Assembly (NCBI RefSeq): GCF_900636915.1
Contig: NZ_LR134327.1
Coordinates: 1,302,001 to 1,366,000 of the forward strand
Direction: 5' to 3'
Origin: Aggregatibacter aphrophilus ATCC 33389
GTDB lineage: Bacteria > Pseudomonadota > Gammaproteobacteria > Enterobacterales > Pasteurellaceae
Length of the DNA: 64,000 nucleotides
Both the position numbers and the translations under genes were made by a program. Under the pieces are notes generated by a model. That model had not been told where the DNA came from and ran no database searches. It saw nothing but the letters and a program-made list of their open reading frames with translations. Below, in pieces: positions 54,079-57,788 of the stretch (within the stretch, counting starts at the first letter, position 1; each line of letters begins with the position of its first letter).

Positions 54079-54711
54079 TTATTTCAAAATGACCAAATGC
54101 CGTTCACCAACGAGCTCAGGAACATGAAGTTTTATAATATCTTTTATGGCGAATTTACCGTCTAATTCTTGCACTTCCTCATCACGACAAAGCCCTTTTA
54201 GCGCATAAAAAAGTCCATTTTCCGTAGGCAAATGACTACACCAATCAGTCATATCTTTAAGAGAGGCAAAAGCACGGCTTAACACACCATCAAATTGGTG
54301 ATCGGGTTGATATTCTTCCACCCGCTTAAGTACTGGTTCTACATTGGTTAGTCCTAGCTCACGCACTGCATGTCGAATAAAACTAATGCGTTTTCCAAGA
54401 CTATCTAGGAGCACAAAATGTTTATCCGGATTAATAATGGCTAATGGCAAGCCCGGTAAGCCCGGACCTGTACCCACATCAATAAAACGATCACCTTGTA
54501 AATAAGGGCTAACTACCAAGCTATCTAAAATATGTTTAACCAACATTTCCTGTGGATCACGCACAGAAGTCAGGTTATATGCCTTATTCCATTTATTGAG
54601 CAATGAAACCAACTTAACTAATTGTTGTTGCTGTTGTTCTGTAACAGAAAGTGCGGTCTGTTTTAATAATGTTTTTAGTTTATCTGCCAGTTGCATATCA
54701 AGGTTAGCCAT
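54079..54711 (-). CDS. rsmG: 16S rRNA (guanine-527-N7) methyltransferase RsmG
   Basis: A 210-residue SAM-dependent methyltransferase (GidB). The SAM motif [17 protein letters not shown] is at about 80-96; [20 protein letters not shown] and the RAFASLKDM block are conserved. Its ATG overlaps the mnmG stop (TAATG), the classic gidA-gidB coupling. Confidence 0.97.
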
Positions 54712-56600
54712 TATTCACCCCGCTTTAACATGCCTTGTTTTTTTAAGTTTACTAAAATAATGGAAATGGCCGCCGGCGTAATACCGGAAATACGACTGGC
54801 TTGTCCGATAGATACGGGACGATGTTGTTCCAGTTTGATACGAACTTCGTTAGATAATCCCGCAACTTTGGAATAATCAAAATGTGGCGGAATTGCCGTA
54901 TTTTCATGGCGTTTTTGCTTTTCGATTTCTTCTTGCTGATGTTCGATGTAACCTTGATATTTAATGGCAATTTCCACTTGTTCAATAGCTTCTTTATCGG
55001 CCATCGGCGGTTGAAACGGCGTAAGTGCGGTCAAAATTTGATAATTTATTTCCGGACGACGCAATAAATCTTCACCACTGGCTTCACGCACTAACGGACT
55101 GCCCAATACTTGGTTAGCTTCTTCTAAATATTCTGAACGCGGGTGTAACCAAATACTGCGCAAACGCTGACGTTCTTGTTCAATATTTTCCATTTTCCGA
55201 TTAAAACGCGCCCAACGGGCTTCATCAATTAAGCCTAATTCATGGGCAATCGGAGTCAAACGAATGTCGGCATTATCTTCACGTAATAATAAGCGATATT
55301 CCGCGCGGGACGTGAATACGCGATAAGGCTCTTTGGTGCCAAGCGTGCAAAGATCATCCACCAACACACCCATGTAGGCCTGATCACGGCGTGGGAACCA
55401 AGCCTCTTTTTCCTGCACATAAAGACCGGCGTTAATTCCTGCTAACAAACCTTGAGAGGCGGCCTCTTCATAACCGGTAGTACCGTTAATTTGACCGGCA
55501 AAGAATAAACCTTGAATGGATTTGGTTTCTAACGTTGGTTTTAAATCGCGCGGATCAAAATAATCATATTCGATAGCGTAGCCCGGTTTGATAATACGGG
55601 CATTTTCCAAACCTTTCATGGAATTGACGATTCCCATTTGCACGTCAAATGGTAGGCTGGTAGAAATCCCGTTTGGATAAATTTCATTTGTGGTTAAGCC
55701 TTCCGGTTCCAAATAAATTTGATGAGAATTGCGATCGGCGAAACGCATAACTTTATCTTCAATGGACGGACAATAACGCGGACCGATCCCTTCGATCACA
55801 CCTGTGTACATTGGGCTACGATCTAAATTATTACGGATCACTTCATGGGTTTTTTCATTCGTATGTGTAATAAAACAAGGAATTTGACGAGGATGCTGAT
55901 CAACCGATCCCATGAAAGAAAATACTGGCAACTGTGCATCGCCATGCTGTTCGGCAAGCACGGAAAAATCAATAGTGCGTGCATCAATGCGTGGCGGCGT
56001 ACCGGTTTTTAAGCGATCCACCCGTAAGTTCAAATCACGTAAACGTTGCGCTAATGTAATGGAAGCGGGATCACCGGCGCGTCCACCGGTGTAATTTTCT
56101 AAACCAATGTGGATCTTGCCGTCTAAAAATGTACCTAAAGTTAAAATCACGGATTTAGCATGAAATTTCAGCCCCATTTTCGTCACGACACCGGTAGCAC
56201 GATCCTGCTCAATTAAAATATCGCTGACTTCTTGCTGAAAAATATCTAAATTAGGTTGATTTTCAAGGGCAATGCGAACTGCCTGACGATATAACACACG
56301 GTCTGCTTGCGCACGGGTAGCCCGTACGGCCGGGCCTTTGCTACTGTTTAAGGTACGAAATTGAATACCGGCCTGATCCGCAGCTGTCGCCATTAAACCG
56401 CCCATGGCATCAATTTCTCTAACCAAATGGCCTTTTCCTATCCCGCCAATTGCAGGGTTACAAGACATTTGCCCTAACGTATCAACATTATGCGTAAGTA
56501 ACAGGGTTTTTAATCCCATACGGGCAGGCGCAAGCGCAGCTTCAGTTCCTGCATGCCCGCCACCAATGACAATGACGTCATAAGTATCCATATAAAACAT
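54711..56600 (-). CDS. mnmG: tRNA uridine-5-carboxymethylaminomethyl modification enzyme MnmG
   Basis: A 629-residue FAD protein (GidA) that, with MnmE, makes cmnm5U34 in tRNA. The N-terminal FAD motif is [38 protein letters not shown] and [14 protein letters not shown] are conserved. The start at 56600 ([10 protein letters not shown]) fits the family. It flanks oriC and is transcribed away from it, as in E. coli. Confidence 0.98.
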
Positions 56601-56764
56601 AATAATATTTATCTCTGATGTACTGATCTAATGCAAAAGAGATCCCTTGATCCCTTAAAAAAATTGCGTGCTATTCTACTGAAAAACGAAGGGGCTTGAA
56701 AGATAAGATTATGAGAATTGATGGCAAGGATCAATGTGAAAGATCCCTGTTTAATAAGTTATAA

Positions 56765-56839
56765 GATCTTTATATATAAATAAGTTTATTATTACTATTA
56801 TTAAGATCCTATTTTGTTCTGAATAAGATCCTTTTTTAT
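56765..56839. repeat. DNA unwinding element with three GATC 13-mers
   Basis: GATCTTTATATAT (56765), GATCCTATTTTGT (56805) and GATCCTTTTTTAT (56827) resemble the three E. coli 13-mers GATCTNTTNTTTT. The whole segment is over 80% A+T by eye. Confidence 0.85.
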
Positions 56840-56864
56840 AATGAAATGAAAGAGATAAAAGATT

Positions 56865-56877
56865 GATCAAACTGTTA
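56865..56877 (+). promoter_or_regulatory. Candidate IHF site in oriC
   Basis: GATCAAACTGTTA matches the IHF consensus WATCAANNNNTTR at all but its first base. It lies between the unwinding element and the DnaA boxes, the usual position for DNA bending. Confidence 0.5.
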
Positions 56878-56906
56878 AGATCTTACTGATCCTATACCTT
56901 AATTCC

Positions 56907-56915
56907 TGTGTATAT
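56907..56915 (-). promoter_or_regulatory. DnaA box (one mismatch)
   Basis: On the minus strand ATATACACA, one base from the consensus TTATNCACA. Confidence 0.6.
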
Positions 56916-56924
56916 CTTCGTTAG

Positions 56925-56933
56925 TTATCCACA
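56925..56933 (+). promoter_or_regulatory. DnaA box, perfect consensus
   Basis: TTATCCACA, the strongest DnaA-binding 9-mer (R1/R4 type). Confidence 0.92.
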
Positions 56934-56997
56934 TAATAGCTATACATAAAAGTTGTTATAGTGATAAAAACAGATTTTTAACAGTTTTAATCTAAAG

Positions 56998-57006
56998 TTA
57001 TACACA
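56998..57006 (+). promoter_or_regulatory. DnaA box TTATACACA
   Basis: TTATACACA fits the consensus TTATNCACA and is the R2-type box of E. coli. Confidence 0.88.
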
Positions 57007-57070
57007 GGAATAAATTGATAAGTTTGATTAAATTTTCATCATAAAAGAGATTTTTATTAAGAAGACTGGA

Positions 57071-57514
57071 CTAAATTTTTTGTATGAAGGTGGGTAACCA
57101 ATCTTCTGCACATTGATCATGATCGGCATCATTTAACACATCAATGCGTAAAGCATCGGCAATTTTAACCGCACTTTTAGTTTGTAGTGCTTCTTCTACG
57201 GTATCTACAGCAAAACAGAATGTGTCGTAATCGGAATTTCCTAAACCAATCACGGCAAATCTTAAATCTGAGAGATCTGCGTTGCTGTCTTTCAATGTTT
57301 CAAATAACGGTTTTAAATTATCCGGTAATTCCCCTGCGCCATGTGTGGAAGTAACAACTAACCATAATTTTTCATTGATAACATCGTCTAATGCCGGACC
57401 ATGATGTAATTCGGTAGTAAAACCTTGCTGTTGTAATACACTTTCCAAATGTTCGGCAACATATTCAGCACTGCCTAAGGTGCTGCCGGTAATTAAGCAA
57501 ATTTTAGGTTGCAT
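57071..57514 (-). CDS. mioC: MioC, FMN-binding flavodoxin-like protein
   Basis: A 147-residue flavodoxin. The FMN loop is [12 protein letters not shown] (10-21), then [12 protein letters not shown] and the third loop [16 protein letters not shown]. coli MioC supports biotin synthase in vitro, and its transcription reads into oriC. Here too mioC is transcribed towards oriC and ends at its border. A good AGGAGA site precedes the ATG. Confidence 0.93.
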
Positions 57515-57569: not shown

Positions 57570-57788
57570 TTAGATGCTGTCGGTAATACCTAAAAGTGAA
57601 CGTAAGCGCTCTTGGATATTTTGGTGTTCACCTCTTAATTGTTCATTTTCACCACGTAATGCATCATTTTCTTGTTGTGCTCTGCCGTTTTTCTCTCTTA
57701 ATTCATCCACTTCTAATTGAAGGAGTTGAATGGTCTCAACAGCTTGCTTAATTTTGTTTTCTAACTGATCTAAAACTTCGAATGACAT
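57570..57788 (-). CDS. zapB: Cell division protein ZapB
   Basis: A 72-residue coiled-coil protein that stabilises the Z-ring through ZapA. Almost all of it is heptad-like: FEVLDQLENKIKQAVETIQL then LQLEVDELREKN and repeated glutamate/glutamine segments. A GAGGAAA site precedes the ATG. It is divergent from glpX. Confidence 0.94.
   Translation of the reverse strand: MSFEVLDQLENKIKQAVETIQLLQLEVDELREKNGRAQQENDALRGENEQLRGEHQNIQERLRSLLGITDSI

Follow-up and report, generated by a model that had tools for sequence, protein, structure and literature searches.

The 470-bp gap between mnmG and mioC in Aggregatibacter aphrophilus ATCC 33389 represents, with a probability of about 0.93, the Aggregatibacter chromosomal origin of replication (oriC), and constitutes a full origin of the Escherichia coli type. 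It departs from E. coli oriC in two respects: the I2 position carries a near-consensus DnaA box, as it does throughout the family, and the exact R1 box is lost in Aggregatibacter (9 of 9 genomes). The origin type itself is known, and the value of the analysis is a comparative one. Across 100 Pasteurellaceae loci, R4 and R2 are near-invariant and the box at the I2 position stays close to consensus, whereas R1 shows the weakest conservation of the four. This pattern is relevant to the question of what starts the left DnaA oligomer, R1 or a central anchor.

Layout of the mnmG–mioC gap

The window, i.e., the whole stretch of 64,000 nucleotides that was analysed, comprises bases 1,302,001–1,366,000 of a single-contig genome of 2,337,153 bp. 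The gap has an A+T content of 74%, and its features are listed in Table 1. Both flanking genes and their directions are shared with oriC of E. coli K-12 (NC_000913.3), and the mioC gene presents itself as the ortholog of E. coli mioC by position and by 48% identity of the gene products. By MioC, the closest named relative is Aggregatibacter kilianii PN_528 (95% identical). Beyond mioC the neighborhoods differ, with asnC and asnA in E. coli but zapB (Pfam ZapB, window positions 57570–57788), which adjoins glpX, in A. aphrophilus.

Table 1. Features of the A. aphrophilus origin region, in window positions; offsets are counted from the start of the R2-position box.
Feature	Positions	Strand	Offset	Sequence	Basis or match
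mnmG (gidA), left flank, reads away from oriC	54711..56600	-			Pfam GIDA
oriC region, mnmG–mioC gap	56601..57070	none			
11-GATC cluster	56625..56891	none			motif count
Likely DNA unwinding element	56748..56815	none			the window's 15 least stable 50-mers start at 56748–56766
R1-position box, degenerate	56818..56826	-	R2-107	TTATTCAGA	one mismatch
IHF-site position	56845..56857	+	R2-80		2 mismatches to consensus
Alternative IHF-like match	56865..56877	+	R2-60		1 mismatch
R5M-position weak site	56873..56881	-	R2-52	ATCTTAACA	
I2-position box	56907..56915	-	R2-18	ATATACACA	one mismatch
R2-position box	56925..56933	+	0	TTATCCACA	exact
C3-position weak site	56953..56961	+	R2+28		
C2-position weak site	56964..56972	+	R2+39		
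I3-position site	56975..56983	+	R2+50	TTTTTAACA	one mismatch
R4-position box	56998..57006	+	R2+73	TTATACACA	exact
mioC, right flank, reads towards oriC	57071..57514	-			Pfam Flavodoxin_1

With an exact DnaA box defined as TTWTNCACA, the gap contains two exact boxes, at the R2 and R4 positions, and four sites with one mismatch (56735, 56818, 56907, and 56975), so that the two boxes and the further near-match named in the original prediction are confirmed. At least two exact boxes occurred in 0.13% of 3000 shuffles, and the combination of an inverted box (at most one mismatch) at -18, an exact box at 0, and an exact box at +72/+73 occurred in none of the 3000. The predicted cluster of 11 GATC sites within about 270 bp was likewise found, with starts from 56625 to 56888; shuffles that keep the dinucleotide composition yielded 1.8 GATC on average and at most 8 (n = 3000), and the densest other 267-bp stretch of the window contains 7. 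A chance origin of the box and GATC pattern is thus excluded by the shuffles.

The order of the E. coli sites is described as R1, tau1, R5M, tau2, I1, and I2 in one direction and R2, C3, C2, I3, C1, and R4 in the other (PMC5742627), whereby arrayed sites are spaced by two bases and R1 is separated from R5M by about 46 bp (PMC4451416, PMC6727663). From the spacings given in these papers, R5M is expected at -51, I2 at -18, and the right-hand sites in steps of 11 bp. The gap matches this scheme: R1, R2, and R4 have the same directions as in E. coli at nearly the same distances (R1–R2 106 in E. coli and 107 here; R2–R4 74 in E. coli and 73 here), and the weak sites between them are spaced in the predicted 11-bp steps. 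Shared with E. coli are also the oppositely directed left and right arrays, the GATC cluster, and the AT-rich element left of R1, and the E. coli-like layout and gene order that had been proposed for the gap are therefore supported. The visible boxes had further been noted to lie all on the mioC side. Their location is correctly described, but the arrangement is the same in E. coli, where the unwinding element has every DnaA site to its right (PMC6727663).

The gap had also been suggested to be compact, to hold fewer boxes, and to constitute a minimal origin for the family. A reduced origin of this kind, with a shorter layout, would be in line with the presence of just two exact boxes and with the absence of an exact R1 from all nine Aggregatibacter genomes, but the span from R1 to R4 differs from the E. 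coli span by no more than about one base, the weak sites at the R5M, C3, C2, and I3 positions are in register, and the I2 position carries a stronger site than its E. coli counterpart, which reads CTGATCCCA and is weak. Since the plan and frame of the E. coli origin are kept, with neither a shorter span nor a lost sub-region, the origin is not minimal, and we consider a reduced origin highly improbable. That fewer boxes are visible by eye results from the R1- and I2-position sites each being one base off consensus.

Apart from the degenerate R1, the gap differs from E. coli in poorly matching 13-mers and in a GATC-free section that starts at the I2 position and ends shortly after R4. The three predicted GATC-containing 13-mers are present (56765, 56805, and 56827), but with 3, 3, and 2 mismatches to the E. 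coli consensus GATCTnTTnTTTT, and the third is located to the right of the R1 position, outside the unwinding element. The latter is AT-rich, constitutes the least stable DNA of the window, and is located just left of the R1 position. An unusual GATC distribution was considered and dropped, as GATC is scarce in this section of 19 outgroup origins as well (mean 1.5, compared to 0.5 in Pasteurellaceae). At the place expected for the IHF site, between R1 and R5M, there are two mismatches, as in E. coli's own site at -79; the match with one mismatch lies 20 bp further right and is found only in A. aphrophilus and A. kilianii among the nine Aggregatibacter genomes.

GC skew was determined for the window and for 31 sampled stretches of 15 kb each. 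The cumulative minimum within the window falls at 56–58 kb and the sign of the skew switches at the gap, so that on the sampled sequence the predicted skew minimum was found where it had been placed. Between oriC and dif, all three stretches have positive skew. Among the 27 stretches outside this short arm and away from dif, 25 are negative and two slightly positive (+0.003 and +0.009); the remaining one, from 1,606,793, straddles the skew switch near dif, which occurs about 4 kb past that site. These data also bear on the idea that the gap is a relic and that replication begins elsewhere, e.g., at dnaA, which is located at 958 kb, about 400 kb away from the gap. Against it stand the skew switch at the gap, with none in the sampled stretches near dnaA, and the retention of the architecture in 100 of 100 loci, and we consider a relic highly improbable as well.

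Origin architecture across Pasteurellaceae

A MioC match was obtained in 139 of 140 Pasteurellaceae genomes, whereby the match of one genome (G008) was too weak to be MioC and was excluded. According to a hand count per genome, mnmG adjoins mioC in 69 of 138 genomes, is absent within about 1.5 kb of it in 67, and is cut off by a contig end in 2. For the comparison we used 70 distinct mnmG–mioC gaps (69 genomes and one MAG contig), anchored on three boxes after one gap of 3067 bp had been dropped as too long, as well as 30 further genomes with mioC missing or not beside mnmG, which were reached via mnmG. In all 30 of the latter the origin pattern lies upstream of mnmG, i.e., the origin stays with mnmG where mioC is separated from it. 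The same plan is present in all 100 loci.

Each locus was anchored where the -18 box, R2, and R4 (plus, lightly, R1 in the 30) together scored best, so that the following counts lean upward: R2 is exact in 93 loci and one base off in 7; R4 is exact in 98 and one off in 2, at an offset of +72 (69 loci), +73 (28), +71 (2), or +74 (1); the inverted box at -18 is exact in 80, one off in 19, and two off in 1; and R1, at -104 to -107, is exact in 44, one off in 43, two off in 11, and three off in 2. As a control, reverse boxes at five other offsets had at least two mismatches in every locus. The outgroup consisted of 18 genomes and E. coli (20 genomes were fetched, of which one had no mnmG beside mioC and one no anchorable box). 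These 18 origins, from the same order, keep a similar box frame, with exact boxes in 18 of the 19 outgroup origins for R2, 16 for R4, and 7 for R1, but an exact -18 box occurs in only 2 of the 19. In the 91 Pasteurellaceae loci outside Aggregatibacter, the mean number of mismatches dips at -51 (2.95), -18 (0.20), +28 (2.80), and +50 (1.98), compared to a left-side baseline of 5.15; the dip at +39 is weak (3.60), and no clear dip was detected in these loci at the sites expected at -40, -29, and C1.

Aggregatibacter deviates from its relatives at R1, which is exact in none of its 9 genomes compared to 44 of the 91 others and has at least two mismatches in 6 of 9 compared to 7 of 91 (Fisher 1e-4, where the genus is a single lineage and the decay of R1 may be one event). 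An IHF consensus with at most one mismatch at -78 to -81 is present in 68 of the 91 other Pasteurellaceae and in 4 of the 19 outgroup origins; all nine Aggregatibacter origins have two mismatches there, a count that proves nothing by itself, since the E. coli site has two as well. R5M is kept in Aggregatibacter, at -52 in eight genomes and at -51 in one; an apparent loss of this site was wrong, as the fixed offset of -51 had missed the site at -52.

A literature search on Pasteurellaceae oriC with DnaA box or mnmG yielded no paper. The close central box pair is already in print for Haemophilus influenzae and is not new in itself: an additional central high-affinity site, closely paired with R2 as in the gap, has been described, and a separate anchor for each oligomer has been suggested (PMC4451416). 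Five genomes of one genus in our set, presumably Haemophilus, deviate from consensus by one base in the I2-position box as well as in the R2-position box, unlike the gap with its exact R2, and in these genomes mioC is not beside oriC.

The conserved sequences and spacings suggest that DnaA would sit on R4 and R2 and then occupy the weak sites of the right array. On the left, DnaA bound to the near-consensus box at the I2 position would pair closely with R2, so that the left oligomer probably has its own central anchor, from which it would extend over R5M towards the degenerate R1. By analogy to E. coli, the AT-rich element at about 56748–56815 would open and receive the helicase. DnaA of A. 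aphrophilus is 62% identical to E. coli DnaA (464 positions), and the C-terminal motifs that we take to contact the box appear unchanged. SeqA (PF03925) and MethyltransfD12 (PF02086) are each encoded by one copy in the genome, the latter presumably being a Dam-type methylase; together with the GATC cluster they would presumably delay the re-firing of new origins.

It could even be that, in the left half of the Aggregatibacter origin, the DnaA oligomer no longer begins at R1 but has its nucleus in the middle of the origin, at the I2-position box next to R2, and extends outward until it reaches the unwinding element, with R1 and the IHF bend freed from selection, although we regard this as unlikely. 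If true, it would be a natural counterpart of the laboratory-made R1-less E. coli origins, with the direction of left-side assembly reversed. R1-less E. coli origins are reported to function but to become dependent on Fis and IHF (PMC4451416), which makes the combination of a weak R1 with a weak IHF site in Aggregatibacter of interest.

As a side observation, a contig labelled as a Bacteroidota MAG (L053) carries a Pasteurellaceae-like mnmG–oriC–mioC region, which is probably a binning error.

Unequal chromosome arms in the assembly

A search with a pattern that we assume to be that of dif gave a match without mismatches at 1,605,456, i.e., 246,856 bp from oriC (oriC–dif span 1358601–1605456). 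In this assembly, the shorter arm thus comprises 10.6% of the 2.34-Mb chromosome, compared to a median of 48.8% in 42 relatives, which makes the genome the most extreme of 43 in the family; among the others, only G108 (19.0%) and G090 (38.7%) have a shorter arm below 40%. The 43 genomes are 42 single-contig genomes and G128, which has both sites on its main contig. Other multi-contig genomes were left out, as were the single-contig genomes G005 (no dif match), G063, G094, and G103, and for G003 one of two dif matches was used. The origin was positioned by the mnmG-side architecture in 42 of the 43 and was assumed from mioC at a contig end in G129. Distances based on mioC were rejected where mioC is not beside mnmG, and mnmG positions were used instead. 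Like the skew, the directions of the six 16S genes agree with these arms: the five genes in the long arm are encoded on the minus strand, whereas the short arm has a single one, on the plus strand. The position of dif is also consistent with the KOPS counts (0 versus 8 and 1 versus 4, with none in the short arm), but these are too few to separate real from misassembled arms.

Unequal arms and a reshuffled gene order are known from the same genus: for three strains of Aggregatibacter actinomycetemcomitans, imbalances of 40.1%, 30.6%, and 13.8% have been reported (PMC2996985). By the same formula, the imbalance is 78.9% here compared to 40.1% in HK1651 and 30.6% in D11S-1, with the terminus taken from dif here and from Oriloc there. 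Recombination between rRNA operons has been cited for the JP2 clone (PMC2996985).

The rRNA operon at 1406 kb joins an upstream flank that corresponds to oriC+55 kb in A. kilianii G017 with a downstream flank that corresponds to oriC+899 kb, i.e., sequences about 840 kb apart in that genome, which has an operon at both places. In G021, which has balanced arms, the same flanks are also apart (about oriC+80 and +902 kb), whereby the second is not directly beside an operon. A rearrangement between rRNA operons, or a misassembly, is therefore the likely cause of the lopsided arms. In four of the 11 block pairs that could be matched, with about a fifth of each genome sampled, right-arm DNA of G017 is inverted in the left arm here; as blocks that are inverted when moved carry their skew with them, the skew looks consistent. 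A single rRNA-operon inversion as the whole cause was dropped, since at a second rRNA region only the upstream flank is as expected, the downstream flank having its matches elsewhere in G017, and one block near dif is also turned relative to G017. Two successive inversions between rRNA operons would yield the 1406-kb junction, with more changes needed for the whole. Unless the assembly is wrong, the simplest cause would be a series of rRNA-operon recombinations that moved right-arm DNA to the left arm.

That the arms are balanced in the living strain and the assembly was misrouted through near-identical rRNA operons is quite conceivable, albeit somewhat improbable. Among the six rRNA regions, pieces as long as 5.7 kb are 99.6–100% identical, and the junction that differs from A. 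kilianii and from the balanced G021 lies exactly at such an operon; a wrong path through these operons would look the same in the sequence as a true rearrangement. On the other hand, rearranged genomes with unequal arms are known in the genus from finished sequences with PCR-checked breakpoints (PMC2996985), and G108, a genome from another genus, is lopsided as well. If real, the lopsided A. aphrophilus chromosome would offer a natural test of the tolerance for unequal arms and of whether the forks meet at dif or opposite the origin.

The second lopsided genome, G108 (genus g35), has a shorter arm of 395 kb in a chromosome of 2.08 Mb, with the mioC side of oriC at 1846.7 kb and dif at 162.2 kb. 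Its skew is positive in 3 of 3 short-arm stretches and negative in 8 of 10 long-arm stretches, with the disagreement located around 720–890 kb.
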